Of a stretch of DNA of 64,000 nucleotides, positions 28,061 through 59,113 are shown piece by piece (position 1 is the stretch's first letter; every line of letters begins with the position of its first letter). The position numbers and the translations under genes are program-made. Origin of the DNA: Aromatoleum petrolei. GTDB lineage: Bacteria > Pseudomonadota > Gammaproteobacteria > Burkholderiales > Rhodocyclaceae. The DNA lies in assembly GCF_017894385.1 (NCBI RefSeq), contig NZ_CP059560.1, positions 5,340,501 to 5,404,500 of the forward strand, given 5' to 3'. Under the pieces are notes generated by a model. That model ran no database searches, was not told the origin of the DNA, and saw only the letters and a program-made list of their open reading frames with translations.

Positions 28061-28279
28061 CTAGCGCGCGGCGGGATCGGCGGGCGCCCCCGGTGCGGCA
28101 CCGCCGCAGGTCGCCTCGCGTGCGCGAAAACGCTCCACGGCCTGGTTGAACTCGGCGATGGATTCGGCGCTCACCTTCGTGCCGCACTCGTAGCAGGTGT
28201 CGTTGATGCGGTCGAACCAGCGGCAGCCGCACTGCTCGCACGCAAGCTCGGGCGCGCCGGCGGGATTGTGGAAGATCAT
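28061..28279 (-). CDS. Small zinc-ribbon protein
   Basis: A 72-aa protein with two CxxC knuckles separated by 11 residues (first knuckle CEQC, second CYEC), a zinc-ribbon pattern; the remainder is charged and Ala/Pro-rich. Its ATG overlaps the stop of the upstream gene as ATGA, which implies translational coupling and supports it as a real gene. Thiolases of the SCP2-like type often need a small zinc-finger/DUF35 partner, as with BbsA-BbsB of anaerobic toluene degradation. This protein might play that part for the iaa thiolase, but it lacks the OB-fold extension of DUF35. I do not recognise a specific family. Confidence 0.72.
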   Translation of the reverse strand: MIFHNPAGAPELACEQCGCRWFDRINDTCYECGTKVSAESIAEFNQAVERFRAREATCGGAAPGAPADPAAR

Positions 28280-28767
28280 CGGCAGGCCCCGAGGAAGGCA
28301 AGGCCGAGCGTATCGAGGAATTCCTCGTAGCCCGCGTCCTGCAATTCGAATTTCGTGCGCAGCACGAAGAACATGATATGCCCCTGCCGGATCAGTCGCT
28401 TGATCAGCGACAAGGTGTCGCCGGCAAGGCTCGCGCGCATCGCTTCGAGCGCCGCGTCGTCGGCGACGAAGAGCAGATCCACGCGCGCCTCCTGGAAGCC
28501 CGCGTAGCGCATCACGCCGGCCGACATGCCGCTGCCGTCGTTGAGCCATTTCATCATCGGCACCTCGCCCGCGGCCTCGACCAGCCCCGCGACGTGCTTG
28601 CCGGGCTGTATGCCCGAGCCGCTCCGCGGCACGAAGCCGACCGACGAGCCTTCGACCATGTCGGTGAAGAGCCCGTTGTAGCGGTCGAGCATCGCCTGCC
28701 ACGGCGCCATGTCGCCGAAGGCATCCCCGGCTGTCGCCGGCGCGTCCGCTTCCAGTTCAATCTGCAT
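28276..28767 (-). CDS. Conserved-looking protein of unknown function (163 aa)
   Basis: Soluble, no signal peptide, no membrane helix, and only one Cys (near the C-terminus). A GGAGG site five bases from the ATG and overlaps with both neighbours (11 bp with the thioesterase gene, 4 bp with the zinc-ribbon gene) argue strongly for a real, coupled gene. Visible stretches include PGKHVAGLVEAAGEVPMMKW and LIRQGHIMFFVLRTKFELQD, but I recognise no family. Because it lies in the leftward iaa arm between CoA-thioester enzymes, it may be an accessory or chaperone-type protein for that pathway. No function is claimed. Confidence 0.8.
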   Translation of the reverse strand: MQIELEADAPATAGDAFGDMAPWQAMLDRYNGLFTDMVEGSSVGFVPRSGSGIQPGKHVAGLVEAAGEVPMMKWLNDGSGMSAGVMRYAGFQEARVDLLFVADDAALEAMRASLAGDTLSLIKRLIRQGHIMFFVLRTKFELQDAGYEEFLDTLGLAFLGACR

Positions 28768-29320
28768 GCTTGCCTCCGTCAGTGGCCCGCCGGTTGCCGT
28801 CGGCGGGCAGGGAAAGAGCATCGGCCGCGAGTTCCGGCACGGGCTGACAATAGCGCCCAAGGCAGGCACGGATGTCCGGCGGAATCGGCACCGAATTCAT
28901 CGTCTCGAGGTCCATCGTGACGAGCGTCTGCCGGGCCCGCAGGCGCAACTCGTCGCCGACCCGGCCCTGCACGTCGAGACCGATCGAGCTTTCGCCGATG
29001 CGCGTGACGGTGAGCCCGAGCATGAGCGCGTCACCCATCCTGCTCGGCCGCGTGAAGGTGCAGTCCATGCGCACCGTCGGAATTCCGAGCCGGCGCGTCA
29101 TGATCAGATCCGCGAACGAGGTGCCGAGCCCGTCCGTCAGCCAGTCCTCGACGAGCCCGTTGAGGAGCACGAAATACTGCGGGTAGAACACGATGCCGGC
29201 CGGGTCGCAGTGCGCGAAGCGCACCAGCACCTCGCGCTCGAACATTGCCGGCCGCGCCGGAGCGGGTGTCTTCGCTCCGACCTCGCCGACGAACGCGATC
29301 GCGCTGCTGAGGTCTGTCAT
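28757..29320 (-). CDS. 4-hydroxybenzoyl-CoA thioesterase-like acyl-CoA thioesterase
   Basis: A 187-aa hot-dog-fold protein. The motif FAHCDPAGIVFYPQYF contains the catalytic Asp (about residue 39) in the DPAG context of Pseudomonas-type 4-hydroxybenzoyl-CoA thioesterase. Substrate-tunnel residues differ, so the acyl group is not predictable. AGGAGACAGGACG precedes the start at 29320. It lies 87 bp after the fused dehydrogenase/hydratase gene and overlaps the next gene. Within the indole-acetate region it could hydrolyse 2-aminobenzoyl-CoA or stalled CoA esters to recycle CoA when flow is blocked, which is inference. Confidence 0.85.
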   Translation of the reverse strand: MTDLSSAIAFVGEVGAKTPAPARPAMFEREVLVRFAHCDPAGIVFYPQYFVLLNGLVEDWLTDGLGTSFADLIMTRRLGIPTVRMDCTFTRPSRMGDALMLGLTVTRIGESSIGLDVQGRVGDELRLRARQTLVTMDLETMNSVPIPPDIRACLGRYCQPVPELAADALSLPADGNRRATDGGKHAD

Positions 29321-29407
29321 CGTCCTGTCTCCTATGCGCGTGGTCATGGGCTCAATGTATCCACGCGCCGCTGCGGGCGCCCCCCCCACCCGGTATGGCC
29401 CGGGCCA

Positions 29408-31423
29408 TCACGGCGTCTTCGTGAAATCCGGCTTGCGCTTTTCCTGGAAGGCGGTGATGCCCTCGCGGGCGGCTGCCGTGCAGGCGCTGTCGCCCCAGGC
29501 CAGGTAGCCGATCTCCAGCGCCTCCTCGAAGGTCGGCGCGGCCGCCGCGGCCTCGACGGCCCGCTCGAGGATGCCGATGACTTCGGCACTGAGCGGCTGG
29601 CCATTGGCGGCGACCGGGGCAATGGGGTCGAGCGGGGCGATCTGCACCACGCCGTCGGGGATGCCGCCCACCCTGCCCTCCAGGGCCTTGACGCGGGCAA
29701 CGGCCGCGCGGATGAGTTCCGGGTAGTCGCGGGCGAGCCCGTCGACGATGCCCAGCTCGAACGCCCGCGTCGCCTTCAGCCGCTCGGCCCGGCGCAGCAT
29801 GCCGTGGAACTCGGCCGACGCCTGCGGCCAGCGCCGGTATGGCACGACCATCGCGCCGATGCCGTGGACGATGCCGAGCGTGATCTCGGGCATCTGCATC
29901 CAGGCGCTCGCCTGCGCGACGATACCGTGGCAACGCATCGCCAGCTCGAAGCCGCCGCCCAGCGCCATGCCGTTGATCGCGGCGACGACCGGTTTCTTCA
30001 TGCGGTCGAGGTGCACCAGCAGGCGCGAACAGTCGCGGGCGTACTGCGCGGAGGACGGCGCATCGCCGAGCATGTTCACGAAGCGCCCGATGTCGCCGCC
30101 GGCGCAGAAGGCGCGATTGCCGTAGCCGACGAGGACGAAACCCGCCACCGCGGGGTCCTCTTCGAAGTACCGGATGACCGACAGGATCTCGTCGGTCAAT
30201 TCATCGTGGAGCGCGTTCAGAGCTTCGGGGCGGCGCAGCGTGATGACCTTGACGTCGCCGATGTCGTCGACGAGCACATGACGCAGGAAGCCCTGGTAGT
30301 CGCCGAGCGGCTTCCGGGCGGCGGGCATGCCGCGCCGCTCGCTGCAAAAGCGCGCGAGCATGCGGCCGGCTTCGCCGTCGCCGAGGTCGCGCATCAATTC
30401 GAGCGGCCCCTTCTTGAACCCGAGCGCCTGTCGGCAGCCGAAATCGAGGTCGGCCGGCTCGCCGATGTCGCGGTCGAGGATGTCCACGGTCTGCGAGAAC
30501 AGCACCCCGAGCAGACGCTCACGCACCGTCGCTGTAAGGTCGTCCGCGACAGTAAGCGGCTTGCCGGGGGGCACCGTCAGCCAGCGGTCGACCGAACGGA
30601 ACACCGGGGCCGGACGGTAGTGCTCGCCTTCGACTTCGGCCTGCAGCATGTTCGTCTCGGTAATGATCGGGTTGCCGTTGGCGAGGTTCAGCACGAAGAA
30701 CGGCCCGGCGTGCACGAACTCGCCCGCGACGCTGTCGATCTCCGCCGCGGTCGCGCGCTCGAGCAGCAGTCCGGACTCGTTGCACCAGTTGTCGAAGATC
30801 CGGTCGAGCATGAAGCACGCGACATCGTCGGTGACGAGGGGCACCTTCCCGGTCGAACAGAAGACCCAGCGCAGGTATTCGACGACGGCAGGATCGGTAC
30901 GCGCCCAGCGGACGACCTCGACGACCGGGTTGCGCCAGGCCGGCGCGAAGAAGTGCGTGACGGTGGCACGCTCGGGATGCTTCAGCGCGGAGAAGATCTG
31001 CTCGGCCGGCAGCGAACTCGTGTTCGACGTGATCAGCGCGTCCGCGCGGACGACGGCCTCGACGTCGGCGAAGATACGGCGTTTCAACGCGAGGTTCTCG
31101 GTCGCCGCTTCGAGCACCCAGTCCGCTTCCGCGAGATCGCGATAGTCGCGCGTGCCGACCACGCCGGCGGTGACCGCCGCGGCTTCGGCCTCGCTCATCT
31201 TGCCTTTCGCGACCGCTTTCGCCGCGTAATCGGCGAAGCGCTGCAACGCGCGGTCGAGCGCCGCCTGGGCAACGTCGACGAGGATCAGCTTCAGGCCCGG
31301 CAATGCGCTCTTCAGGTAATAGCCGATATCCGGGCCTATCGTGCCGGCACCGATTATCGCGACGGTTTGCGGCAGCGGGCGCTGCGGCGTGGCGAGCAAC
31401 GGATTGGCGAAACGGGTGACCAT
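29408..31423 (-). CDS. Fused 3-hydroxyacyl-CoA dehydrogenase/enoyl-CoA hydratase
   Basis: A 671-aa bifunctional beta-oxidation enzyme with domain order reversed relative to FadB. Residues about 18-320 are the NAD-dependent dehydrogenase (IGAGTIGPDIGYYL; catalytic His in THFFAPAWRNPVVEV), and about 400-670 the crotonase domain (oxyanion-hole motif AFCAGGDIG; Glu in MPEITLGIVHGIG). AAGGAGG sets the start at 31423. In the anaerobic indole-acetate pathway such a fusion hydrates 2-aminocinnamoyl-CoA and oxidises the alcohol to the 3-oxo ester for thiolysis. It is the first gene of the leftward arm, and a palindrome at 31567-31580 lies in its promoter region. Confidence 0.9.
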   Translation of the reverse strand: MVTRFANPLLATPQRPLPQTVAIIGAGTIGPDIGYYLKSALPGLKLILVDVAQAALDRALQRFADYAAKAVAKGKMSEAEAAAVTAGVVGTRDYRDLAEADWVLEAATENLALKRRIFADVEAVVRADALITSNTSSLPAEQIFSALKHPERATVTHFFAPAWRNPVVEVVRWARTDPAVVEYLRWVFCSTGKVPLVTDDVACFMLDRIFDNWCNESGLLLERATAAEIDSVAGEFVHAGPFFVLNLANGNPIITETNMLQAEVEGEHYRPAPVFRSVDRWLTVPPGKPLTVADDLTATVRERLLGVLFSQTVDILDRDIGEPADLDFGCRQALGFKKGPLELMRDLGDGEAGRMLARFCSERRGMPAARKPLGDYQGFLRHVLVDDIGDVKVITLRRPEALNALHDELTDEILSVIRYFEEDPAVAGFVLVGYGNRAFCAGGDIGRFVNMLGDAPSSAQYARDCSRLLVHLDRMKKPVVAAINGMALGGGFELAMRCHGIVAQASAWMQMPEITLGIVHGIGAMVVPYRRWPQASAEFHGMLRRAERLKATRAFELGIVDGLARDYPELIRAAVARVKALEGRVGGIPDGVVQIAPLDPIAPVAANGQPLSAEVIGILERAVEAAAAAPTFEEALEIGYLAWGDSACTAAAREGITAFQEKRKPDFTKTP

Positions 31424-31539
31424 CTGGGAGCCTCCTTCGGTAGTCTCAAGCGGCGAGCCGTCTTTGCGGCGCGCATTCTTATCGGCCGGCCACACGGCGC
31501 CGGCCGGCGAACTCCTCTGGGGCACCCGTACAGGGCGGT

Positions 31540-31567
31540 CGGCGGATTTCAGCCGCCGTTTTGTTTT
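31540..31567 (+). terminator. Terminator-like hairpin on the plus strand in the iaa leader
   Basis: CGGCGG and CCGCCG form a six-base-pair stem around ATTTCAG, followed by TTTTGTTTT. The orientation is rightward although no rightward gene precedes it, and its U-run touches the palindrome at 31567-31580. It may stop antisense transcription toward the operator, or be a leader hairpin for the leftward mRNA. Confidence 0.5.
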
Positions 31568-31580
31568 AATGTATACAGTA
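31567..31580. promoter_or_regulatory. Operator candidate TAATGTATACAGTA (leftward iaa arm)
   Basis: A 14-base near-palindrome (one mismatch) centred on GTATAC, 144 bp upstream of the fused dehydrogenase/hydratase start. It differs by one base from the perfect palindrome upstream of the GntR gene. GntR-family FCD-type repressors often bind sites with a GTATAC core. Confidence 0.7.
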
Positions 31581-31657
31581 TCCTGTGCACTGAAGAAAAA
31601 AAGCAACCACTCCAGGCGCCGGTAATGGAACGACGCCATCGAGATCGACGGATATCT

Positions 31658-32572
31658 TCAGGAAGCGGGCCGAACCTTCGATGCGACGCCGGGCGATTCC
31701 ACACCGCGGCGCAGCGTGTCCACCATGGCCGCGGCGATCTCGTCGGTCGAACGCCGGCCTTCGCGATACCAGACGTGCACCCAGTTCAGGAAGCTCAGGA
31801 GCATCAGCCGCAGCAGGCTGCGGTCGGCATGCGGGGCGAGCGGCAACTCATCGATGAGCCCGCGGTAGACGTCCTCATACGCTTCCCGCATCGGACGGAT
31901 CTTCGCGAAGAGTTCCGGGTTGCCGGTCATCGCGAGGCTGTGGCCGGTGACGCGGTCGATGTAGCTGCCGCTGGTGATCGCGGCGATGTGCACCTGGCAG
32001 ACACGGGTGAGCCGCTCCCAAGGGTCGCTGGAAGCCGTCAGCGCCTCTGCCACGGCGGCCATCAGGCGCCGGAAGCCCTCTCCATGCACGGCGAGATAGA
32101 GCTCGTCCTTGGATGCAAAGTAATGGTAGATCGACCCCGGCAACAGCCCGACCCGGCGGGCAATGTCGCGAATGGAGGTGCTGTCGTAGCCCTGCTCCGC
32201 AAAGAGCGCAGCCGCCGCATCGAGGATCACCTGACGGCGGTCGATCGGCTCACCGTCCGTCGCGGCGTCGCCTAAGACGAGCTGCGCGGCGAGCGCCCCG
32301 CGTTCCAGCAATCCGCGCTGCGAGTCGGTGAGCGCCGCCACGCCCTCGCGCGACGATTGCGCGATCGCCCGCAAGCGCTTCACCGCGGTCTCGAGGTCGT
32401 GCTTCTGCCAGATGTAGCGCACCCCCGAGGGCGAAACCACGAATCCGTCACGCCGCAGCCGGGCCGACACCGCTGCCTGCCCCAATTGCGGCTCGTCGCG
32501 AGCGAGTCGAAGGATCGCAGCCTCGACGTCCGGGGCGCGACGCTCTTCTTCATGGCAGGCATCAAGGCTCAT
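31658..32572 (-). CDS. TetR-family regulator with extra N-terminal helix-turn-helix domain
   Basis: A 304-aa protein, about 100 residues longer than usual TetR regulators. Residues about 10-75 form an additional winged-helix-like segment (LGQAAVSARLRRDGFVVSPS, then VRYIWQKHDLETAVKRL), similar to helix-turn-helix domains of transposases. The TetR DNA-binding domain follows at about 110-155 (AAALFAEQGYDSTSIRDIAR; GLLPGSIYHYFASKDELY), then a helical ligand domain. AGGTGA eight bases upstream favours the ATG at 32572; an ATG at 32578 and a GTG at 32581 are alternatives. It lies between the two iaa arms and divergently from GntR, so it may control either arm in response to a CoA ester. Confidence 0.85.
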   Translation of the reverse strand: MSLDACHEEERRAPDVEAAILRLARDEPQLGQAAVSARLRRDGFVVSPSGVRYIWQKHDLETAVKRLRAIAQSSREGVAALTDSQRGLLERGALAAQLVLGDAATDGEPIDRRQVILDAAAALFAEQGYDSTSIRDIARRVGLLPGSIYHYFASKDELYLAVHGEGFRRLMAAVAEALTASSDPWERLTRVCQVHIAAITSGSYIDRVTGHSLAMTGNPELFAKIRPMREAYEDVYRGLIDELPLAPHADRSLLRLMLLSFLNWVHVWYREGRRSTDEIAAAMVDTLRRGVESPGVASKVRPAS

Positions 32573-32739
32573 GCACATCACCTAATTGATTGGATATCCA
32601 TCATAGCCAAGCGGCCGCCGTGCCGGCAAACTGCTGCAGCGGCTTTCGGTGGCGGACAGTCTCGAATGCAGGACCGGCGAAGTCCGTGTCGAAGCCGATT
32701 CCACCCGCGAAGACAAGATGCACTTTACACCCTAAAAAA

Positions 32740-32753
32740 TACTGTATACAGTA
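32740..32753. promoter_or_regulatory. Operator candidate TACTGTATACAGTA (rightward iaa arm)
   Basis: A perfect 14-base palindrome ending 28 bp before the GntR start and overlapping promoter-like bases (TTTACA at 32724-32729 and TATACA at 32745-32750, spacing shorter than ideal). The 12-mer ATACTGTATACA is shared with the site upstream of the leftward arm. Autoregulation by GntR and shared control of both arms is the simplest reading. Confidence 0.78.
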
Positions 32754-32781
32754 CACATCAACTCGAAAGCCGCCGCCAACA

Positions 32782-33489
32782 ATGAACCATCAAAGGCTCC
32801 AGAAAATGGTTTCCACGCTTCAGCCTGTCGAACGTCCTCTTGCCCTCGGTGAACGGGTCTATCACACCTTGCGCGATCATCTGCGCAACGGTCAGATCCT
32901 CGCCGGCCAGCCGCTGCAGGAAGTCCAGCTCGCCGAAAAGCTCGGCGTCTCGCGGACTCCCGTGCGTGAAGCCTTGCGCCGCCTCGCCAGCGAAGGCCTG
33001 CTCGTGTCCGACAACCGCAGTTTCGTCGTGCCGGCGCTGACGCTGCAGGACGTCAACGACATCTACGAGATCCGCTTCCTCATCGAACCGGCCGCGATCC
33101 GCAGCATCGCCCCGCTGACACGTTCGCCGCAGGGACGCCGCGGCATCGAGGACGCGCTCGCCGCGATCGTTCGAGCGCACAAGGTCGGCAACGCCGAGGC
33201 ATTCCGCGACGCGACGATCTGCTTCCGCGCGGCGTGGCTCGCGCTGGTGCCGAATCCGCGGCTCGTGCGCATCGTCGAACAGTACGCCGACCACATGCAG
33301 CGCATCCGCACGCTGACGCTGGACGATCCGGAGATCCGCACGATCGTGCTGCGCGGCCTGAACCGCATCTCGGCCGCACTGGCCGCGGGGGACGGCGACA
33401 CCGCCGCGACGGCCATGCTCGAACACCTGGTCGAGGCGAAGCGCGCATTTATCGCCGCCGTCGGCCTCACCGAAGACGGCCGGGCCTGA
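32782..33489 (+). CDS. GntR-family (FCD subfamily) regulator of the iaa genes
   Basis: A 235-aa regulator. It has an N-terminal winged helix (LAEKLGVSRTPVREALRRLA, about residues 52-71) and a C-terminal all-helical FCD ligand domain with the characteristic NDIYEIRFLIEPAAIR and a metal/ligand-binding His in LEHLVEAK. A GntR gene is a recognised member of the auxin-degradation cluster in Aromatoleum. The ATG at 32782 has a weak ribosome-binding site; Met9 (32806) behind AAAGG is an alternative start. It is the first gene of the rightward arm, 55 bp ahead of the thiolase gene, and has a perfect palindrome in its promoter. Confidence 0.88.
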   Translation: MNHQRLQKMVSTLQPVERPLALGERVYHTLRDHLRNGQILAGQPLQEVQLAEKLGVSRTPVREALRRLASEGLLVSDNRSFVVPALTLQDVNDIYEIRFLIEPAAIRSIAPLTRSPQGRRGIEDALAAIVRAHKVGNAEAFRDATICFRAAWLALVPNPRLVRIVEQYADHMQRIRTLTLDDPEIRTIVLRGLNRISAALAAGDGDTAATAMLEHLVEAKRAFIAAVGLTEDGRA

Positions 33490-33544
33490 CCCAGGCATTC
33501 GGCCGTTCGTGCACCAGAAGAAAAAAGACCGGAGACCGCAGACG

Positions 33545-34753
33545 ATGACCCGCTACACGGCCGAAATTCCATACGGCGCCTACTGGAGCACGCCCTTCGC
33601 GCGCTGGCAGGGCAGTTTCGCGTCGCTGCACAGCGTGCGCTTCGCCGCGCACGTGGCGAAGAACGAGCTCGCGAAGCGCGCCATCGATCCGCAGGTGATC
33701 GATTACGGCGTGCTCGGGTTCTCGGTGCCGCAGCAGCATGCGTTCTACGGACTGCCCTGGCTCACGGGCCTCGTCGGCGCGACGCGCGCGGGCGGACCGA
33801 CGATGATGCAGGCATGCGCGACCGGCGTGCGCACCCTGCTCGCCGCTGCGCAGGAGATCGAGGCCGGCATGGCCGAGGTCGCGCTCGTCGTGAATTGCGA
33901 CCGCACCTCGAACGGCCCCCACCTCTACTACCCGAATCCGCGCGGGGCCGGCGGCACGGGCACGTCCGAGAACTGGGTGCTCGACAATTTCGGCTGCGAC
34001 CCTTTGGGCGGCCACTCGATGCTGCAAACGGCGGAGAACGTCGCCGCCAAGCATCGCGTCACGACCTCTCAGCAGCACGAGCTCGTGCTGCGACGCGAGG
34101 CGCAATACGGCGACGCACTGAAGGACGATTCCGCCTTCCTGCGCCGCTTCATGACCCTGCCCTTCGAGGTCCCGAGCGCCGATTTCCGCAAGATCGCGGC
34201 GACGCTCGACGGCGACGAGGGCACGTCGCGCTCCACGGCCGAGGGCCTCGCGAAACTGAAGCCCGCCGCCGAGGGAGGGACGGTCACTTTCGGCGCCCAG
34301 ACGCATCCGGCCGACGGCAACGCGGGGATCCTCGTGACGACGCCCGAGCGGGCGAAAGCGCTGTCGAAGGATCCGGCGATCGCCGTGCGGCTTCACGGCT
34401 TCGGCCTCGCCCGCACAGAGCTCGCGCACATGCCCGAGGCGATGATTCCCGCCGCGCGGCGCGCGCTCGACCAGGCCGGCCGCGGCATCGCCGACATGAC
34501 CGCCATCAAGACGCACAACCCGTTCGCGGTGAACGACATCGTCTTCGCCCGCGAGACCGGCGCAAACCTGGACACGATCAATAACTTCGGGTGCTCGCTG
34601 GTCTGGGGGCATCCGCAGGCGCCGATGGGCACACGCGCGATCATCGAACTCGTCGAGGAGCTCGCGCTGCGCGGCGGCGGTTACGGCCTCTTCACGGGCT
34701 GCGCCGCCGGCGACACGGCGATGGCAGTCGTCGTCGAGGTCGGCGACCGATAG
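33545..34753 (+). CDS. Thiolase (SCP2/acetyl-CoA acetyltransferase-like), probable IaaA
   Basis: A 402-aa thiolase-fold protein. The nucleophilic Cys is in MMQACATGVR (about residue 98). The third motif is HNPFAVND, resembling the HDCF-type motif of SCP2-like thiolases, where FadA-type enzymes have NEAF. The His motif is VWGHPQAPMG, and GCAAGDTAMA lies at the C-terminus. Predicted reaction: cleavage of 3-(2-aminophenyl)-3-oxopropionyl-CoA with CoA to 2-aminobenzoyl-CoA and acetyl-CoA. GGAGA precedes the ATG at 33545. The published cluster includes a beta-ketothiolase. SCP2-like thiolases often require a small zinc-binding partner, and one candidate lies at 28061-28279. Confidence 0.87.
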   Translation: MTRYTAEIPYGAYWSTPFARWQGSFASLHSVRFAAHVAKNELAKRAIDPQVIDYGVLGFSVPQQHAFYGLPWLTGLVGATRAGGPTMMQACATGVRTLLAAAQEIEAGMAEVALVVNCDRTSNGPHLYYPNPRGAGGTGTSENWVLDNFGCDPLGGHSMLQTAENVAAKHRVTTSQQHELVLRREAQYGDALKDDSAFLRRFMTLPFEVPSADFRKIAATLDGDEGTSRSTAEGLAKLKPAAEGGTVTFGAQTHPADGNAGILVTTPERAKALSKDPAIAVRLHGFGLARTELAHMPEAMIPAARRALDQAGRGIADMTAIKTHNPFAVNDIVFARETGANLDTINNFGCSLVWGHPQAPMGTRAIIELVEELALRGGGYGLFTGCAAGDTAMAVVVEVGDR

Positions 34754-34942
34754 ACCTTGCAGGCGCGCCGCCCACGTCGAAGGGACACGCGGCGCAAGGC
34801 AGCACAGGACCACGCATCACCTCTCCCCTCGGGGAGAATCGAGAGGCGCAAAAGCGCCCGGACGCAGCATCCCCAACCGGATTCGAACGAGTCAGAAGAG
34901 GCGCGTATAGCGCCCGTGACCGAACTTGGAGGAGGAATGGGG

Positions 34943-44773: not shown

Positions 44774-44786
44774 GGAGAACGACAGC

Positions 44787-49759: not shown

Positions 49760-50935
49760 TTACATGCGGCAGCCGCGCGCCGGGTCCGCCAGCGCCTTCT
49801 CTGCGACGCCGACGAGCTTGTTGTCGCGCCCCTCGGCCTTGCGCAGGTAGATGTCCTGCACCGGGTTGTGCGCTTTCGACAGTGTGAACGCGCCGCGCGG
49901 GCTGTCGATCTTCGCCGCTTCCATCGCCTTGATCATCGCCGGCTGCTCGAGCTTGCCGCCCTTGACCGCATCCAGGCCCACGCGCAGCAGCTGGGCGGCG
50001 TCGTAACCCTGCACCGCATACACGTCGGGCTGCATCTTGTAGCTCGTCGCGTACTTGGTGCGGAAGGCCGTGTCCTTCGCGTTGGTCAGGCCGTCGGCGT
50101 AATGCAGCGCCGTCAGCAGCCCTTCTCCCGCACCGCCCATCGCGTCCAGCGTACCGTCGGTGAGGAAGCCCGATGCGTACAGCGGAATGGTCTTCTTCAG
50201 GCCCGCGGCGTCGTAGTCCCTCACGAACTTGGCGGCCCCGCCGCCCGCGAAGAACACGAACACGGCGTCGGGCTTCAGGTTCGCGATCTCGGTCAGGTAG
50301 GCCTGGAATTCGACGTTCGGGAAAGGCAGGTAGAGTTCCTTCGCGATCTTGCCGCCCGCCTTCTCGAAGGCCTCCTTGAAGCCGCCGACGGCCTGTTCGC
50401 CGGCCGCGTATTTCCACGTCAGCGTAACGACGTTCTTGTGTCCACGCTCGGCCGCGACCTTGCCCATGCCGTACGCGGGCTGCCAGTTCGTGAACGAGGT
50501 GCGGAACACGTTCGGCGCGCACAGCGGGCCGGTGAGCTCGTCGGCACCGGCGTTGGGGACGATCAGGAGGGTCTTGGTGTCGCGCGCGACCTTGGCCATC
50601 GCCAGCGCCACGCCCGAATGCACGGTGCCGACCAGCACGTCGACGTTGTCGCGCTTGACGAGCTTGGAGGCGTTCTCGGTCGCCTTGGCCGGATCGGATT
50701 CGTCATCGACGACGAAATACTCGACCTCGCGCCCGCCCAGCGTGCCGCCCTGCTCCGTCACGTACTGCTTGAACCCGTTGGTGATCGCGGTGCCGAGCGC
50801 GGCATAGGTGCCGGTGTAGGGCAGCATCAGCCCGACCTTGACCTTCTCGGCCGCCTGCGCCGCACCGAACGTCAGCGTGCCGAGCGCTACGACGGCGATC
50901 CCACGGACCACTTTGGCTCCCTTCTTCCTGGTCAT
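49760..50935 (-). CDS. Periplasmic LivK-type substrate-binding protein, abm-linked
   Basis: A 391-aa type I periplasmic binding protein. The signal peptide has a Lys/Arg-rich N-region (MTRKKGAKVVR) and a hydrophobic core ending at AQAA. Motifs include GLMLPYTGTYAALG and VDDESDPAKATENASKLV. The C-terminus ends in a Cys-containing RGCRM. GGAGACGAAGA precedes the ATG. It is the last gene of the leftward 2-aminobenzoate operon and probably binds 2-aminobenzoate or a related aromatic acid. As with the iaa-linked protein, no permease or ATPase lies nearby. Confidence 0.86.
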   Translation of the reverse strand: MTRKKGAKVVRGIAVVALGTLTFGAAQAAEKVKVGLMLPYTGTYAALGTAITNGFKQYVTEQGGTLGGREVEYFVVDDESDPAKATENASKLVKRDNVDVLVGTVHSGVALAMAKVARDTKTLLIVPNAGADELTGPLCAPNVFRTSFTNWQPAYGMGKVAAERGHKNVVTLTWKYAAGEQAVGGFKEAFEKAGGKIAKELYLPFPNVEFQAYLTEIANLKPDAVFVFFAGGGAAKFVRDYDAAGLKKTIPLYASGFLTDGTLDAMGGAGEGLLTALHYADGLTNAKDTAFRTKYATSYKMQPDVYAVQGYDAAQLLRVGLDAVKGGKLEQPAMIKAMEAAKIDSPRGAFTLSKAHNPVQDIYLRKAEGRDNKLVGVAEKALADPARGCRM

Positions 50936-51021: not shown

Positions 51022-52650
51022 TCAGGGTTTCCCCTCGCGCAGCCGGAAACGCTGCAGTTTTCCGGTCTCGGTGCGCGGCAGCGAATCGCGGAATTCGATC
51101 GCACGCGGATATTTGTACGGAGCGATCGTGCGCTTGACGAAGTCCTGCAGCTCGCGCACGAGCAGCTCCCCCGCCCCGTGGCCGGGGCGCGGCACGATGA
51201 AGGCCTTGACGATCTGCCCGCGCTCCTCGTCGGGCACGCCGATGACCGCGCATTCCGCGACCGCCGGATGCTGCATCAGCGCATCCTCCACTTCCGGCGC
51301 GCCGATGTTGTAGCCGGCCGACACGATCATGTCGTCGAGCCGCGACTGGTAGTGGAAATAACCGTCGGCATCCATGTAGTACGCGTCGCCGGTGTAGTTC
51401 CAGCCGTCGCCGACGTAGTTGCGCTGGCGCGAGTCGTCCAGGTAGCGACAGCCGGTCGGCCCTTTCACGGCGAGCCGGCCGACGGTGCCGGCGGGCACTT
51501 CGCGCCCTTCGTCGTCGACGATGCGGGCGCGGTAACCCGGCACGACGGTGCCGGTCGCGCCGGGGCGGGCGTGCTCCTCGTCGGCGGAGATGAAGATGTG
51601 GAACATCTCGGTCGCGCCGATGCCGTCGATGATCTCGATGCCCGTCGCATCCTTCCACAGCGCCCGCGTCGCCGCCGGCAGCACTTCGCCCGCCGACACG
51701 CACTTCACCAGCGGTCCGCCCAGGGGTGCGCCGAGCCGGCGCTCGCGGGCGCCCTCGGCCATCGCGCGATACGAGGTCGGCGCGGTGAAGAGGATCGTCG
51801 CGCCGAATTCGCCGATCGCGTCGAGGAGTTTCGGCGGAGAAGCCTGTTCGAGCAGCACCGTCGATGCACCCACGCTCATCGGGAACAGCAGCATGCCGCC
51901 CAGCCCGAACGTGAACGCGAGCGGCGGGCTGCCGATGAAGACGTCGTCCGGCTGCGGCCGCAGCACGTGCGGCGGCCAGCAGCGGCAGGCGGCGATGACG
52001 TCGCGGTGGAAATGCATCGTCGCCTTCGGCTGTCCCGTCGTGCCCGACGTGAACGCGAGGATGCAGGTGTCGTCGGAGGCGGTCGCGACGTTGTCGAACT
52101 CGTCGGATTGGCGCGCCATCGCCGCTTCGAGGCCCGCGCCGGACGGGTCGCCGAAGGAGACCACGTGCGCGACGGACGGACGCGTCGCCACCGCCTCGTC
52201 GAGTTCGCCGCGCAGCGCGTGCGCGCACAGCGCATGCGTGATGCGGCCCTTGTCGAGGATCTGCCCGAGCTCCTTCGCGCGCAGCAGCGGCATCGTCGCG
52301 ACCGCGATCGCGCCGGCCTTCATGATTGCGAACCAGCACGCGGCCAACATGGGGCTGTTCGGCCCGCGCAACAGGACGCGATTGCCCGGCACGACGCCGA
52401 GCTCATGCACGAGCACGTTGGCGATGCGGTTCGCGTGCCCGAGCAGATCGCGGTAAGTCCAGCACAGGCCGCCGGGGGCACGCAGGCAGACGCGCTCGCC
52501 CTCGCCGCCGAGAACGCGGCGGTCGAGCAGTTCGACGGCACAGTTCATCAGGGGAGGAAACTGCAGCGACGGCAGTTCGAAGAGGAATTCCGGCTGCTGC
52601 TCGGGCGGCGGCAGGCGGTCGCGGGCGAAGGTATCGACGTGACTCGTCAC
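51022..52650 (-). CDS. abmG: 2-Aminobenzoate-CoA ligase (benzoate-CoA ligase family)
   Basis: A 542-aa AMP-forming aryl-CoA ligase. Motifs in order: FTSGTTGQPKATMHFHRD, IDGIGATEMFHIF, and the hinge SRLDDMIVSAGYNIGAPEVE. The catalytic Lys is in RTETGKLQRFRLR. This pattern, especially GATEMFHIF, is typical of benzoate/2-aminobenzoate-CoA ligases rather than fatty-acid ligases. It would convert anthranilate to 2-aminobenzoyl-CoA, the substrate of the fused monooxygenase in this operon and the end product of the auxin pathway. The symbol follows the A. evansii cluster. A 184-bp gap precedes it, so a secondary promoter is possible. Confidence 0.87.
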   Translation of the reverse strand: MTSHVDTFARDRLPPPEQQPEFLFELPSLQFPPLMNCAVELLDRRVLGGEGERVCLRAPGGLCWTYRDLLGHANRIANVLVHELGVVPGNRVLLRGPNSPMLAACWFAIMKAGAIAVATMPLLRAKELGQILDKGRITHALCAHALRGELDEAVATRPSVAHVVSFGDPSGAGLEAAMARQSDEFDNVATASDDTCILAFTSGTTGQPKATMHFHRDVIAACRCWPPHVLRPQPDDVFIGSPPLAFTFGLGGMLLFPMSVGASTVLLEQASPPKLLDAIGEFGATILFTAPTSYRAMAEGARERRLGAPLGGPLVKCVSAGEVLPAATRALWKDATGIEIIDGIGATEMFHIFISADEEHARPGATGTVVPGYRARIVDDEGREVPAGTVGRLAVKGPTGCRYLDDSRQRNYVGDGWNYTGDAYYMDADGYFHYQSRLDDMIVSAGYNIGAPEVEDALMQHPAVAECAVIGVPDEERGQIVKAFIVPRPGHGAGELLVRELQDFVKRTIAPYKYPRAIEFRDSLPRTETGKLQRFRLREGKP

Positions 52651-52834: not shown

Positions 52835-53320
52835 TCAGGCGGGCATCGTCGAGAGATGCGCCTTCAGACGATCGAGCAGCTTCAGCATCTGCCGCTTCTC
52901 GGCATGGTCGAGCCCGGCCAGCAGGCCGACGACCCATTGCTCGTGCTCGCGCGCCATCCGATCGAACTGGCGCCGGCCCTCGGCGGTCAGCATCACCGTG
53001 AATGAACGCCGATCGCGCGGATCGTCGTGCCGCTCCACGAGGCCTTCCTCGGCCAGCTTGTCGGTCAGCCCGGTCACGTTGCCGCCCGTCACCATCAGCA
53101 GGCGCGACAGCTCGCTCATCTTCAGCCCTTCCGGATGACGGTCGAGCTGCGCCATCAGGTCGAAGCGCGGCAGCGTCGAATCGAAGTTCGTCCGCAGCCG
53201 CGTGCGCAGCTGCGCCTCGACGAGGTTCGTGCAGGTCAGCAGCCGCAGCCAGACGCGCAGCGCCTCGTGCTCGGCGTCGCGTGCATCGGTCGAGGGGCGG
53301 GCGGTGGCGGGCGTGGACAT
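52835..53320 (-). CDS. MarR-family regulator of the 2-aminobenzoate operon
   Basis: A 161-aa winged-helix regulator with the MarR core: FDLMAQLDRHPEGLKMSELS, a recognition helix around LMVTGGNVTGLTDKL, and the wing DDPRDRRSFTVMLTAEG. Relatives near aromatic CoA-ester pathways are repressors relieved by the CoA ester. It lies inside the abm operon between the Rid-family and ligase genes. A perfect GAATTAATTC palindrome 63 bp upstream of its start is a candidate site. The probable inducer is 2-aminobenzoyl-CoA, which is inference. Confidence 0.87.
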   Translation of the reverse strand: MSTPATARPSTDARDAEHEALRVWLRLLTCTNLVEAQLRTRLRTNFDSTLPRFDLMAQLDRHPEGLKMSELSRLLMVTGGNVTGLTDKLAEEGLVERHDDPRDRRSFTVMLTAEGRRQFDRMAREHEQWVVGLLAGLDHAEKRQMLKLLDRLKAHLSTMPA

Positions 53321-53421: not shown

Positions 53422-53820
53422 TCAGTCCGGGATCACCGCAGTGACCTCGATCTCGACTTTCGCGACGTCCTCGACGAGGTCGGCGACCTGCACCGCCGTC
53501 ATCGCCGGGAAGTTGCGCCCCATCACCTCGCGGTAGGCCTGGCCGATCTCCTTCAAGCGGGCGACGTACTCCTTCTTGTCGACCAGGTACCAGGTCATGC
53601 GCGTGACGTGCTCGGGTCCGCCGCCGGCGCTGCGCACGACGTCGATGGCATTCTTCAGCGCGAGGAAGACCTGCTGCACGAGGTCGTCGCTCGTGAAGCG
53701 GCATTGCGTGTCCCAGCCGATCTGGCCGCCGACGAAGATCTGGCGTCCGCGCGCCTCGATGCCGTTCGAGTAGCCCTTGGGCGCTGCCCAGCCCTCGGGC
53801 TGAATCACCTTATGAACCAT
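53422..53820 (-). CDS. RidA-family protein lacking the canonical active-site arginine
   Basis: A 132-aa Rid protein. The fold is clear ([21 protein letters not shown]; a C-terminal [11 protein letters not shown]), but the position of the Arg in the RidA motif PARS-VxV is Met here ([12 protein letters not shown]). That places it among Rid subfamilies reported to lack 2-aminoacrylate deaminase activity. It overlaps the acyl-CoA dehydrogenase gene by 11 bp. The product of 2-aminobenzoyl-CoA monooxygenase/reductase is an enamine-type amino-oxocyclohexene carboxyl-CoA, so a deaminase- or hydrolase-like role on that ring is attractive. It is unproven. Confidence 0.87.
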
Positions 53821-55015
53821 GCTTGTCTCCTTCGGGGGATGCCTTTCCTGCCGCGGACGGCGCCGGCTGTTTCATGAGTTCGCGCGCGACGATGAGCTTC
53901 TGCACCTCGGTCGCGCCTTCGTAGATGCGCAGCGCGCGGATCTCGCGGTACAGCGACTCGACCTTGACGCCGACCCTCACGCCCTGCCCGCCGTGCATCT
54001 GCACCGCGGCGTCGATGACGCGCTGTGCGTTCTCGGTCGCGGTCATCTTCGCCATCGCCGCCTCGCGCGTCGTCGGGCGCTTCGCGACGTCGCGCTGCCA
54101 CGCGGCACGCGCCGTCAGCAGCGCCGCCGCGTCGATGTCGGTCGCCATCTCGCCGAGCTTCGCCTGCGTGAGCTGGAAGTCCGCGAGCGTGTGGCCGAAC
54201 ATCGCGCGGCCCTTCGCGTGCGCGAGCGCCTCGTCGAGCGCGCGGCGCGCGAAGCCCAGCGCCGCCGCGGCGACGGACGCGCGGAAGATGTCGAGCGTGC
54301 GCATCGCGATCTTGAAACCTTCGCCCGAGGCGCCGAGGCGGTTCCCGGCCGGAACACGCAGGCCGTTGAAGCGCAGCCTCGCGAGCGGGTGCGGCGCGAT
54401 GACGTCGAGCCGCTCGGCGACCTCGAAGCCCGGCATGTCCGGCGTCACGACGAAGGCCGACAGTCCGCGCGTGCCCGGCGCATCGCCGGTGCGCGCGAAC
54501 ACGCAATACACGTCGGCGATGCCGCCGTTCGAGATCCACGTCTTCTCGCCGTCGAGTACGTAGTGGTCGCCGTCCACCCGGGCGGTCGTTGCGATCGCGG
54601 CAACGTCGGAGCCCGCGTCGGGCTCGGTCAGTGCGAACGCGGCGATCCACTCGCCGGACGCGACCTTGGGCAGGACGCGGCGCTGAAGCTCGGGCGAGCC
54701 CGCGAGCGTGATCGCGCCCGAGCCCAGCCCCTGCATCGCGAACGCGAAGTCGGCAAGCCCGTCGTGGTACGCGAGCGTCTCCCGCGCGATGCACAACGCC
54801 CGCGAATCGAGCTCCGGCAGCGCGCCGCCGAACGCGGCCGGCACGCAGTAGCGCAGGAAACCGGCGCGGCCGAGCGCGGCGACGAGGCGGCGGCACGCGG
54901 CGTCGGTGTCGTGATGGTTGATGGGGGGCATCGCGGCCGCCCAATCGAAAATCGCGTCCGAGAGCGCGCGGTGCTCGGGGCCGAAGAACGGCAGGTCGAG
55001 GAAGCTGCGGTCCAT
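53810..55015 (-). CDS. Acyl-CoA dehydrogenase of the 2-aminobenzoate pathway
   Basis: A 401-aa FAD enzyme with [23 protein letters not shown] and the C-terminal [18 protein letters not shown]. The usual catalytic Glu in YEGA is present, unlike in IaaF. About 25 residues extend beyond the family C-terminus and look disordered. It lies 4 bp after the enoyl-CoA hydratase-family gene and overlaps the Rid gene, so it is tightly cotranscribed. It should oxidise an alicyclic or opened-chain CoA ester formed after ring reduction, passing electrons to ETF. The exact step is not known to me. Confidence 0.88.
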
Positions 55016-55019: not shown

Positions 55020-55865
55020 TCAGCAGCCTTCGAACTTCGGCTTTTCCTTCGCAGCGAACGCCTGGAACGCGCGCCCGAAGTCGCCGGTCACCATGCAGAT
55101 CGCCTGGGCCTGGGCCTCGGACTCGATCATCTCCTCGATGCCCATCGCCCATTCCTGGTTCAGCATGGTCTTGGTCATCGTGTGCGCGAACCACGGCCCG
55201 TCGGCGAGGGTTTTCGCGAGGGCCTGAGCCTTGCCGAGCAGTTCGGCGGGCGCATGCACCGCGCTGAAGAAGCCGCAGGCGAGCGCCTCGTCGGCGCCCA
55301 TCGCGCGCCCGGTCATCAGCAGGTCGGTCGCCTTGCCCTGGCCGACGACGCGCGGCAGCAACCCGCAGGCGCCCATGTCGGCGCCGGCGAGCCCGACGCG
55401 CGTGAAGAGATACGCGGTCTTCGCCTCCGCGGTGCCGAGGCGGAAATCCGCCGCAAGGGCGACCATGGCCCCGGCGCCGGCGCAGATGCCGTCGATCGCC
55501 GCGATGATCGGCTGCGGGGCGCGGCGCATCGCCTTGACGAGATCGCCGGTCATGCGCGTGAAGGCCAGCAGCTCGGGCATCGTCATCTTCGTCAGCGGCT
55601 CGATGATCTCGAACACGTCGCCGCCGGAGCAGAAGTTGCCGCCGGCCCCCTGGATCACCACCGTGCGCACGTCGCTCGCATACGCGAGGCCGCGGAACAG
55701 GTCGCGCAGCTCGGCGTACGAGTCGAAGGTGAGCGGGTTCTTCTTCTCCGGGCGGTTCAGCGTGATCGTCGCGACGCGTCCGTCGTCGGAGCACTCCCAG
55801 CGGAAATGGCGCGCCGTATAGTCCTTGAAGGGGTGCTTGTGGTCCTGCATCGACAGTTCGGCCAT
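55020..55865 (-). CDS. Enoyl-CoA hydratase/isomerase-family protein, probable ring hydrolase-like
   Basis: A 281-aa crotonase-fold protein. The oxyanion-hole motif [12 protein letters not shown] and [13 protein letters not shown] are present, but the two Glu residues of true hydratases are not. Instead Asp163 in [18 protein letters not shown] sits with the same spacing to the LPRVVG motif as the catalytic Asp of 4-chlorobenzoyl-CoA dehalogenase. That suggests hydrolytic or C-C-cleaving chemistry rather than hydration, for example opening of an alicyclic oxo-acyl-CoA ring. AAGGAGAACGAG fixes the start at 55865. It follows the SDR gene by 70 bp. Confidence 0.85.
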
Positions 55866-55935: not shown

Positions 55936-56748
55936 TCAGCCGCACATCACTTCGCCGCCGGCGACTGCGATCGATTGCCCGTGGATCGCGTCGCTCGACG
56001 GCAGACACAGCCAGCCGACGGTCGCCGCGACGTCCTCGGGCTGCACCAGCCGGCCCTGCGGGTTGCGCGCCGCGAGCGCTGCCTTCGCGTCGTCGGTGCT
56101 GCGACCGGTCTTGGCAACGATGTTGTCGACGGCGCCTTCGATCAGCGGGGTGTCGGTATAGCCGGGGCACACCGCGTTGACCGTGATCCCCTGCTTCGCG
56201 ACCTCCAGCGCAAGCGCGCGCGTGAGGCCGACGACGCCGTGCTTGGCCGCGCAGTACGCGGCGACGTAGGCGTAGCCGACGAGCCCCGCGGTGCTCGCGA
56301 CGTTGACGATGCGCCCCCAGCCCCCGGCCTGCATGCCGGCCAGCACCGCGTGCGTGCAGTGGTAGGTGCCTGTGAGATTCACGGCGAGCATCTCGCTCCA
56401 CAGCTCGGGATCGGTGCGGCCGAAGGGCGCGCTTTTCGCCGCGCCGGCGTTATTCACCAGGATCGCGATCGGCCCGCGCGCCGCCGCGGCGGCATCGAAC
56501 GCCGCGCGCACGGCGGCGAAGTCCGTGATGTCGGCGACGGCGAGGCCATGGCCTTCGCCGTCGAGTTCCGCGCAAGTCGCCTCGAGCGCCGGCCCGCGCC
56601 GGCCGACGAGCGTCAGCGTCGCGCCGAGGCGCGCGAGTTCCAGCGCGCAGGCGCGGCCGATGCCGCTGCCGGCACCGGTCACCAGCGCATGCCGGCCGGC
56701 GAGCGGCGCGGCGGCGTTTTCTCTCTTGGGATCGGGGGTGATTGTCAT
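55936..56748 (-). CDS. Short-chain dehydrogenase/reductase (3-hydroxyacyl-CoA dehydrogenase-like)
   Basis: A 270-aa classical SDR. The NAD(P)-binding [10 protein letters not shown] (about residues 24-33), NNAG, catalytic Ser in [10 protein letters not shown] and the [11 protein letters not shown]yr-Lys pair are intact. It probably interconverts a hydroxy and oxo group on the alicyclic CoA ester formed from 2-aminobenzoyl-CoA. An acidic residue near the end of beta-2 is not obvious, so the NAD versus NADP choice is open. It lies 40 bp after the fused monooxygenase gene in the same operon. Confidence 0.9.
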
Positions 56749-56788
56749 CGTGATGTTCCCGTGCTCGCTTGCGGGTCTGGGTTCCAGG

Positions 56789-59113
56789 CTATTTGGCTAT
56801 CGAGGCCGCCGCGGCGGCGCGCTGCAGGTTGGTCTCGTATTGGCCGCGGGCGGAGCGGTACTGCTTCGGCCACGCGACGTCGCCGAAGCCGATCTTCGCC
56901 GCTTCGTGCAGCGTCCACGCCGGGTCCGCAAGGTGCGGTCGCGCGATGGCGCACAGGTCCGCGCGGCCCGCAGCGATGATGCTGTTCGCGTGGTCGGCCT
57001 CGGAGATCGCACCAACCGCGAGCGTCGGGATGCCGACCTCGTTGCGAATGCGGTCGGCGAACGGCGTCTGGTACATGCGGCCGTACACCGGCTGGTCGCC
57101 CTTCCACACCTGGCCAGACGAGCAGTCGATGATGTCGGCGCCGGCCTCCTTGAAAAGACGCGCGATCGCGACGGCGTCGTCAGCGGTGTTGCCCCCCGGG
57201 AACCAGTCGTGGCACGACAGGCGCACCGACATCGGGCGGTTCGTCGGCCACATCGCACGCATTGCCTTGAACACTTCGAGCGGGAAGCGCGCACGGTTCT
57301 CGAGGTCACCGCCGAACTCGTCCGTGCGGCGGTTGGTCAGCGGCGACAGGAAGCTCGACAGCAGATAGCCGTGCGCGCAGTGCAGCTCCAGGATGTCGAA
57401 GCCGGCCTCGGCCGCCATGCGCGTGGCGCGCACGAAGTCGTTGCGCACGCGCTCCATGTCGTCGCGCGTCATCGCACGCGGCACCTGCGAGTGCGGCAGG
57501 TAGGGCAGCGGCGAGGCGGAGATCAGTTCCCATGCACCGGTGTCGAGCGGTTCGTCGATGCCTTCCCAGGCGAGCTTCGTCGCGCCCTTGCGGCCGGCAT
57601 GGCCGAGCTGCATACCGATCTTCGCATCCGAATTGCCATGCACGAAATCGACGATGCGCTTCCACGCATTCACATGCTCGGGCTTGTACATGCCCGCGCA
57701 TCCCGGCGTGATGCGCGCATCGGGCGACACGCAGGTCATCTCGGTATACAGGAGCCCCGCGCCGCCCAAGGCACGCGAGCCGAAATGCACGAGGTGGAAG
57801 TCGTTGGCGGCGCCGTCCTCGGCCGAGTACATCGCCATCGGTGACATCACGATGCGGTTCGCGAGCGTCAGGCCCCGCAGCTTGAACGGGGTGAACATCG
57901 GCGGCGGCGGGGTCTCGTCGTCGCGTACCTCCAGCCCGGCCTTGCGCGCGAGCCAGCGTTCGTAGCCTTCGAGCCAGCCCGCGTCGCGCAGCCGCAGGTT
58001 CTCGTGCGAAATGCGCTGCGAGCGCGTCAGCATCGAGTACATGAACTGCTCAGGCTCCAAGGTATCGCAGTAGCGTGCGCCGCACACCTCGAACCATTCC
58101 ATCGCGTTCCACGCGGCGTTCTGCAGCCGCAGCACGTCGATGTTGCGGGCCGCCTGATAGCGCTCCAGCACCGCGGGGATGTGTTCGCGCGTATCGCCCT
58201 CGTCGCGGAAGAGCCGCGTGAGCTCGATCGCATCTTCGAGCGCGAGCTTGGTGCCCGAGCCGATCGCGAAATGCGCGGTGTGCACGGCATCGCCCATCAG
58301 CACGACGTGGCTCTTGCCGTTGTAGTGGTGCCACTGCTCGCACTTCACGCGCTGGAAGTTGAGCCACGCCGAGCCGCGCAGGTGGCGCGAGTTGGTCATC
58401 AGGCGGTGGCCATCGAGGTGCTTGCCGAAGAGCTGTTCGCAGAACGCGATCGACTGCTCCTGGTCGGCGGTGTCGAGGCCGTGCGCCTTCCACACGTGCT
58501 CGGGGCATTCGACGATGAAGGTCGTCGTGTTGTCGTCGAACTTGTAGATGTGGGCCTGGAACCAGCCATGCTCGGTCTTCTCGAAGAAGAACGTGAAGGC
58601 GTCGAAGAGCTTGGTCGTGCCGAGCCAGATGTAGCGGTTGGGCCGCGTGACGATGTCGGGCTTGAACACCTCCGCGTATTTGTTGCGGACGCGTGAGTTG
58701 ATGCCGTCGGAGGCGATGACGAGATCGGCGTCGGGAAACTCGGCGTCCGACTCGACCTCGCGATCGAACACGAGCTCGACGCCCAGTTCCTCGCAGCGCG
58801 CCTGCAGGATGTTGAGCATCATCTTGCGGCCGATGCCGACGAAGCCGTGCCCGCCGCTGCGGATCGTGCGCCCCTTGAAATGGAGCTCGATGTCGTCCCA
58901 GTGGTTGAACGCGACCTGGATCGCGTCGGCCGTCTCCGGGTCCCACTCGCGCATGTTGTCCATCGTCGCGTCCGAGAACACGACGCCCCAGCCGAAGGTG
59001 TCGTAGGGGCGGTTCCGCTCGATCACGCGGATCTCGTGCGCCGGGTTCAGCTTCTTCATCAGGATCGCGAAATACAGCCCCGCGGGCCCGCCACCGATAC
59101 AGACGATACGCAT
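56789..59113 (-). CDS. abmA: 2-Aminobenzoyl-CoA monooxygenase/reductase (fused flavoenzyme)
   Basis: A 774-aa fusion. Residues 1 to about 390 form an FAD monooxygenase with [24 protein letters not shown] and [13 protein letters not shown]. About 398-770 form an old-yellow-enzyme-type FMN reductase with [36 protein letters not shown] and [16 protein letters not shown]. This architecture matches the A. evansii enzyme that hydroxylates and then hydrogenates the ring of 2-aminobenzoyl-CoA using O2 and NADH. Shorter salicyloyl-CoA hydroxylases lack the second half, and databases often name the fusion a salicylyl-CoA hydroxylase. It is the first gene of the leftward operon. A 343-bp AT-richer promoter region lies upstream. 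Confidence 0.93.

Follow-up and report, generated by a model that had tools for sequence, protein, structure and literature searches.

A complete iaa cluster abuts a complete abm operon in Aromatoleum petrolei: linkage of genes for auxin and 2-aminobenzoate degradation

When a gene cluster for the auxin indole-3-acetate (iaa) meets an operon for 2-aminobenzoate, or anthranilate (abm), does the product of the first feed the second? The question is raised by a 64,000-nucleotide stretch (hereafter the window) at positions 5,340,501–5,404,500 of the single-contig genome of Aromatoleum petrolei (5,407,396 bases), in which a complete iaa cluster (28061–49694) and a complete minus-strand abm operon (49760–59113) lie tail to tail, separated by a gap of 65 bp (49695–49759). 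An original prediction, made from the sequence alone, had pointed to this contiguity and to a downstream operon holding both the ring-attacking enzyme and the anthranilate ligase; both points stand, the AbmA and AbmG families having been recognised (Table 1). The physical coupling of iaa and abm is real and recurrent, and suggests a physiological meaning.

On the basis of published work on the enzyme families, indoleacetate would be activated, hydroxylated, opened and rearranged by the iaa enzymes to 2-aminobenzoyl-coenzyme A (2-aminobenzoyl-CoA), which AbmA, with O2, would hydroxylate and reduce to a non-aromatic ring; beta-oxidation-like steps by a short-chain dehydrogenase (SDR), a hydratase and a dehydrogenase would follow, and a Rid-family protein perhaps strips off the amino group. 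Our reading, to which we give a probability of roughly 0.68, is that iaa serves as an upper route to 2-aminobenzoyl-CoA, indifferent to oxygen, and abm as an oxic lower route, with lineages joining iaa to different lower modules. With O2, the iaa product would pass directly to AbmA; without it, 2-aminobenzoyl-CoA would enter a benzoyl-CoA route encoded elsewhere in the genome, and AbmG, together with the abm binding protein, may allow uptake or recapture of free anthranilate. On the benzoyl-CoA side, the genome carries two bzdO-type reductase genes and one BoxB gene (reductase profiles: TIGR02260, which misses the bzd type, then TIGR03191).

Both halves of this scheme are known. The roles of the iaa genes have been described, including the use of O2 by IaaF (PMC8360864; here and below, statements on cited papers refer to the sections of them used); a large study of auxin degraders labelled iaa anaerobic and set it aside (PMC9613470); and the chemistry of AbmA is covered alongside the route by which A. 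evansii anaerobically converts anthranilate into benzoyl-CoA (PMC4539516). New are the repeated joining of the halves and the oxygen branch point that it implies. Among literature titles and abstract openings we found no report of the iaa–abm junction, which the original papers on either cluster may mention, and a term search of the main text of PMC9765128 gave no occurrence of 'indole', 'anthranil' or 'aminobenzo'.

The junction in the window

Gene families were assigned by Pfam and NCBIfam profile matches. The iaa cluster, with two arms that diverge from a GntR gene and a TetR gene, holds the ligase, molybdenum hydroxylase, hydantoinase, class III CoA-transferase, B12 mutase, IaaF, IaaI and thiolase. 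The abm operon combines a fusion of an FAD monooxygenase with an old yellow enzyme (OYE) reductase – AbmA – with a CoA ligase and beta-oxidation-type genes, in a gene order shared with A. evansii KB740. The N-terminal half of AbmA is the monooxygenase (nearest solved chain VioD), the C-terminal half the reductase; its 99% identity to an A. evansii AbmA suggests that it acts on 2-aminobenzoyl-CoA. It is the only copy in the genome, six other matches covering the OYE half only. AbmG is likewise single (next best ligase 36% identical) and 99% identical to its A. evansii counterpart, with a TIGR02262 score just under the cut-off (371 of 375 bits).

A different substrate is hinted at by one profile: AbmA exceeds the cut-off of NF006101, named bifunctional salicylyl-CoA 5-hydroxylase/oxidoreductase, which would make the fusion a salicylyl-CoA 5-hydroxylase and its operon one for salicylate. 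This we find hardly credible, as A. evansii KB740 has two such genes (94 and 99% identical to that of the window), which would fit the two published 2-aminobenzoate clusters. Two clusters for aerobic 2-aminobenzoate degradation were reportedly described in this strain by Schuhle in 2001.

Between the operons, where the original prediction had placed a bidirectional terminator, we find a hairpin, AAGGGGGC-TCAC-GCCCCCTT, which is present, with some positions changed, in all five aligned junctions. Its T-run, however, lies on the minus strand only, plus-strand transcripts getting TTGCTCG after the stem; it would serve abm transcripts, and iaa transcripts would meet a poor tail. Because a terminator scan gave six terminator-like sites against 5.2 expected, the hairpin pattern alone is not significant. 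The 65-bp length is specific to the window: A. evansii and A. toluvorans have about 120 bp more between the genes.

The idea of an island finds no support in the mobile sense: there is no step in GC content at the clusters (0.59–0.71, in 2-kb steps) and no tRNA. No integrase or transposase is among those window genes that were scanned by profile, and IaaL had no match at E 1e-60 in 72,556 plasmid records; relatives of AbmA occur on 100 plasmid records, with up to about 74% identity among the matches listed.

Linkage in relatives

A profile search for IaaL in named genomes gave 186 relatives, and the best 80 of 186 loci (79 genomes) were retained and their neighbourhoods compared by tblastn with the window genes, up to 10 kb from iaaL; many loci are truncated at contig ends, which limits these counts. 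A. toluvorans and each of the two A. evansii KB740 loci show the full junction. In the metagenome-assembled genome (MAG) QDN-W01B it is split over two contigs, each holding part of the acyl-CoA dehydrogenase gene near its end, and we infer contiguity there; the abm binding protein is unmatched by tblastn in this MAG, yet a stretch alignable to its 3' end persists. Separation of the two clusters in all close relatives, which the original prediction had named as counting against it, is not what we see: apart from the window itself, the window-type junction is found at 4 of 80 iaaL loci (two named species and one MAG) and absent at 76, close relatives included. Genes specific to abm lie within 10 kb of iaaL at five loci – the four just named and Vin_29 – and AbmA is on the iaa contig in three more genomes (G264, G265, G270), so that abmA is linked to iaa in 7 of 79 genomes, the MAG being counted by inference.

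The clusters of the closest known systems resemble those of the window. The same iaa genes stand in the same order in an EbN1-like genome (71–94% identity) and at the two A. evansii loci (86–99%), and abm keeps its gene order at both A. evansii loci (90–99%). In the literature, iaa of EbN1 and A. evansii is called anaerobic, with no tie to abm in the sections used, and abm of A. evansii KB740 is reviewed as an anthranilate pathway (PMC4539516); here, by contrast, iaa of the window abuts abm, and each A. evansii abm cluster abuts its own iaa cluster (L092, L138). The A. evansii pair looks like part of a doubled iaa–abm block, which suggests a reason for the two abm clusters of this strain.

At least five further arrangements link iaa and abm, a safe minimum in that some may share an origin. 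In genome G048, one strand carries in succession iaaI, a reductase of OYE type (recognised by eye), Rid, an unknown pair, abmA, a MeaB–XdhC gene, XdhC and a MobA-like gene. In A. buckelii and A. anaerobium, abmG and the binding protein stand directly after iaaI, with abmA some 55–57 kb from iaaL. Vin_29, a Rhodobacteraceae MAG, runs from iaaA to iaaL and on through SDR, ligase, abmA, SDR, MarR, hydratase, dehydrogenase and abmG to a binding protein with a branched-chain-type ABC transporter, then a thioesterase and Rid; one hydrolase open reading frame (ORF), between ligase and abmA, is alone in lying on the opposite strand. The two magnetospirilla Phaeospirillum GS7 and Paramagnetospirillum caucaseum have abmA divergent from iaaA. 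Three draft genomes add further settings: a divergent iaa-like set in G270, whose 40.7-kb contig also carries the main iaa, and a divergent iaa-like locus in G114, whose abmG is elsewhere, each adjoin abmA, SDR, hydratase, dehydrogenase and Rid; and iaaI, the unknown pair and abmA share one 8.7-kb contig in G236.

Two of these settings have features of their own. The iaa-like locus of G114 (L243, L279) shows about 51–54% identity in the hydantoinase and about 40% in the mutase, and molybdenum hydroxylase is not among the genes recognised there; it is perhaps for another indole-type acid. In the magnetospirilla, a single MbdO-like reductase subunit (L228:15918-17342, L293:4938-6239) lies between abmG, with a MarR gene, and the Rid gene – in P. 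caucaseum on the iaa–abmA contig – and is, speculatively, a candidate deaminating 2-aminobenzoyl-CoA reductase giving benzoyl-CoA.

Two catabolic operons could also have come to abut by chance in a single Aromatoleum clade and then been co-inherited, as the narrow distribution of the exact window-type junction would allow. Set against this are the five or more other arrangements and an AbmA tree (75 rows, quick method, LG+G4), on which the label 'linked' (borne by 11 rows) must have been gained or lost 8 times, well-supported branches forcing at least 6 of these changes; the tree omits A. evansii copy b (1 of 76 rows), whose locus ends inside abmA, and scores A. buckelii and A. anaerobium as unlinked. 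Moreover, seven genomes carry iaa and abmA on one contig of more than 3 Mb (G000, G048, G100, G137, G010, G073, G261), two of them within 15 kb (binomial p ~9e-4 against random placement in 4.5 Mb, for a limit set after the data had been seen and with some of the seven related). Chance abutment therefore seems to us very improbable.

Gene content, regulation and a possible role in free anthranilate only

Some of the evidence on gene content counts against our reading, and co-occurrence is unspecific. In a family sample of 199 genomes, 25 counted as iaa-positive (mutase at 78% identity or more) and 174 as iaa-negative, AbmA-like proteins are present in 22/25 against 29/174; BoxB shows the same pattern (24/25 against 17/174), and among BoxB-positive genomes the AbmA difference vanishes (21/24 against 12/17, p = 0.24). 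Genome-level co-occurrence was dropped as evidence for this reason: presence tells little about coupling, and position tells more. In the 79 genomes of the IaaL loci, taken in two sets, an AbmA match at 1e-100 was found in 36/40 and 38/40 (A. evansii counted in both), matches to the OYE half only being those of G272 and G276 (45–47% identity), G277 (62%) and G207 (contig end).

Position, too, is often unfavourable. Of the 80 loci, 75 have no abmA, SDR, hydratase, dehydrogenase or abmG closer to iaaL than 10 kb, though contig ends truncate many loci. In the EbN1-like G100, the A. bremense-like G137, A. buckelii and A. anaerobium, abmA lies about 55–105 kb from iaa without other recognised abm neighbours; these four and G048 have no ortholog of the abm hydratase, only a paralog of 63–64% identity that is present in other genomes too. 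No AbmA was found in the CIB-like G044 at E 1e-150, or in A. tolulyticum and A. toluolicum at 1e-100, and the full abm cluster of A. toluclasticum is on another contig than iaa. The abmA frame of G137 (G137:C1:1464075-1466378) contains one internal TAG.

On a rival view, abm serves free anthranilate only and adjoins iaa through a common tryptophan- or indole-derived diet, without carbon flowing between them. In its favour, the abm operon of the window carries a MarR, a ligase and a binding protein of its own; genomes that lack an iaa mutase at 78% or more can have an abm cluster (e.g. G086, G150, G049); and iaa is present but AbmA absent in G044, G167 and G017. Against it, AbmA's substrate is, by published chemistry, made by iaa; abmA of G048 sits in an iaaI-led array; the linkage recurs in dissimilar arrangements; and G048, G100 and G137 keep AbmA and iaa with no abmG match at E 1e-110 or better. 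The inference that iaa must feed AbmA where abmG is missing is, however, weakened by eight iaa-negative genomes (G026, G086, G150, G049, G180, G161, G115, G067; L236–L242, L088) with abmA at 83–87% identity and no abmG- or iaaB-like ligase in the surrounding 18–19 kb read, because of which AbmA evidently has other feeders. These eight lowered our probability for iaa as an upper route docked to abm from 0.72 to 0.68 and raised the anthranilate-only view a little, to a level that we still call unlikely. In seven of the eight (not L088), a 4HBT thioesterase-like match lies within the abm cluster.

Regulation bears on the same choice. The palindromes upstream of iaaI and gntR/iaaA are probably sites of the GntR regulator. 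TACTGTATACAGTA stands before gntR/iaaA and, with one mismatch (TAATGTATACAGTA), before iaaI; at up to 3 mismatches the window holds three matches (0.03 expected), of which two are at iaa. Copies with 0–3 mismatches stand at the same places in the CIB-like, EbN1-like, A. buckelii, MAG and G048 loci, and A. anaerobium has one before iaaI. At the abm operon of the window no copy was found within 3 mismatches, which favours the anthranilate-only view; any co-induction would therefore need another way, such as the abm MarR. G048 has two imperfect copies (3 mismatches each) before iaaI, and its abmA, further downstream on that strand, is perhaps under the iaa regulator; abmG of A. buckelii and A. 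anaerobium is likewise downstream, on the same strand, of palindrome-like sites before iaaI (2–3 mismatches across G048 and both species). Support for a motif common to the promoters of abmA and dctQ is weak, with 2 matches where 0.77 are expected.

Some details of the genes in Table 1 remain to be added. Inspection by eye puts the probable start of iaaI near 31423, so that the palindrome at 31567 would precede the gene. The Cys-rich protein at 28061 neighbours the iaaI arm in the CIB-like, EbN1-like, A. buckelii and MAG loci, and the protein at 28276 has no Pfam or NCBIfam match; this uncharacterised pair (28061–28869), kept on the iaaI arm, adjoins abmA in G048 and is not far from it in G236. 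A MalT/LuxR-type regulator (25355–28030) flanks the same arm and is retained there in the CIB-like, EbN1-like and MAG loci. The best NCBIfam match of hydantoinase-type subunit A is caprolactamase alpha, under cut-off. Published primer sites for EbN1 iaaF have 1 and 3 mismatches in the window and are exact in both G100 and A. buckelii. The mutase small subunit was counted at 57 of 80 iaaL loci; its loss was ruled out, the reading frame being present at about 41422–41829. On the far side of abm, the DctQMP genes are 2–5 kb from iaaM instead in the A. bremense-like genome, A. buckelii and A. anaerobium. The idea that these three retain a remnant of abm between iaaM and dctQ was considered and rejected: the sole protein-level abm match there is a 30% SDR in A. 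buckelii, which other SDRs match better.

Table 1. Features of the window, numbered from its first nucleotide
Feature	Position	Strand	Basis or remark
Small Cys-rich protein, 72 aa	28061..28279	-	reading frame; zinc-ribbon-like by eye from Cys pattern
Conserved protein	28276..28869	-	conserved with iaaI arm; true start probably ~28767, by eye
4HBT-type thioesterase	28757..29389	-	PF13279
IaaI-type 3-hydroxyacyl-CoA dehydrogenase/enoyl-CoA hydratase fusion	29408..31639	-	PF02737, PF00725, PF00378
Operator-like palindrome TAATGTATACAGTA	31567..31580		pattern match; upstream of probable iaaI start
TetR regulator	31658..32581	-	PF00440
Operator-like palindrome TACTGTATACAGTA	32740..32753		pattern match; upstream of gntR/iaaA
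GntR/FCD regulator	32779..33489	+	PF00392, PF07729; ORF from 32590, start judged by eye
IaaA thiolase	33509..34753	+	PF00108, PF02803
IaaB acyl-CoA ligase, indoleacetate-CoA ligase by position	34757..36475	+	PF00501; name from PMC8360864
Hydantoinase/oxoprolinase-type subunit A	36475..38601	+	PF01968
Hydantoinase-type subunit B	38568..40295	+	PF02538
IaaF acyl-CoA dehydrogenase, by homology decarboxylating benzylmalonyl-CoA dehydrogenase	40292..41425	+	PF00441
B12-binding mutase small subunit	41422..41829	+	translation, recognised by eye
Mutase large subunit	41829..43439	+	PF01642
Molybdenum hydroxylase FAD subunit	43450..44316	+	PF00941
Molybdenum hydroxylase 2Fe-2S subunit	44300..44773	+	PF01799, PF00111
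Molybdenum hydroxylase Mo-cofactor subunit	44773..47195	+	PF02738, PF20256
IaaL class III CoA-transferase	47189..48388	+	PF02515; alignment
IaaM periplasmic binding protein	48390..49694	+	PF13458; ORF from 48261
Hairpin between operons	49716..49735		T-run only in abm (-) direction; stem kept in 5 junctions
abm periplasmic binding protein	49760..50935	-	PF13458
AbmG 2-aminobenzoate-CoA ligase	51022..52650	-	PF00501
MarR regulator	52835..53320	-	PF01047
Rid-family protein, enamine/imine deaminase-like	53422..53820	-	PF01042
Acyl-CoA dehydrogenase	53810..55015	-	PF00441
Enoyl-CoA hydratase family protein	55020..55865	-	NF006107 above cut-off
SDR	55936..56748	-	PF00106
AbmA 2-aminobenzoyl-CoA monooxygenase/reductase	56789..59113	-	PF01494 + PF00724; NF006101 above cut-off
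TRAP transporter DctQ-DctM-DctP, divergent from abmA	59457..62328	+	PF04290, PF06808, PF03480
Second MarR regulator	62378..62935	-	PF12802

Lower modules and a proposed oxygen branch point

A modular iaa would predict its pairing with a reductase-type cluster as well, and a candidate for such a pairing is seen in the Candidatus Desulfobacillus group. In three genomes (G010, G073, G121; L305, L306, L307), the far side of the iaa GntR gene holds a cluster of benzoyl-CoA-reductase type, whose closest recognised gene is about 2 kb from iaa and whose reductase genes are about 8–9 kb from it. The subunits are 75–86% identical to those of a region of the A. petrolei genome that we take to be 'hbd' and that holds one bzdO-type gene, above cut-off, and two subunits of HGD-D type. 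We lean, by a narrow margin over even odds, towards an interchangeable iaa, docked to the oxic abm in some lineages and near a benzoyl-CoA-reductase-type module in Ca. Desulfobacillus, which would also be a general aerobic auxin sink.

A first neighbour control for benzoyl-CoA reductase was dropped, its bzd region (L277) being of the 3-methylbenzoyl-CoA-reductase type. The repeat, with 59 ORFs of the bzd, hbd, box and mbd regions, gave no reductase or Box oxygenase match of 45% or more at the 80 loci, within a reach of 10 kb from iaaL that could not see the Desulfobacillus cluster. Matches at that level were six transporter ORFs (ABC, branched-chain permease, DctM) and, at L148 only, an acyl-CoA dehydrogenase and an enoyl-CoA hydratase, situated among abm genes. 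Of 13 ORFs in the A. petrolei box region, a single one has a match at the 80 loci, and it is an ABC-transporter ORF.

In the box hybrid pathway, too, CoA activation precedes an oxygen-dependent ring attack, as in iaa–abm, though by a different oxygenase. The aerobic auxin pathways iac and iad share the substrate of iaa, and iad ends in anthranilate; their enzymes are highly divergent from those of iaa (PMC9613470), and iaa–abm, by contrast, uses CoA esters. As to oxygen, the original prediction had joined an O2-independent upper to an O2-dependent lower route. The coupling of the auxin route to ring attack on 2-aminobenzoyl-CoA gains from recurrence (the window junction, G048, Vin_29 and two magnetospirilla, among others); 'O2-independent' needs more care, the sole electron acceptor so far for IaaF being O2 (PMC8360864), and 'oxygen-indifferent' is the term adopted here.

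Should AbmA commonly be fed by iaa, the aerobic auxin degraders would have to include many bacteria that are now left out. A. aromaticum, which grows well aerobically on indoleacetate, would in that case have a candidate lower route.

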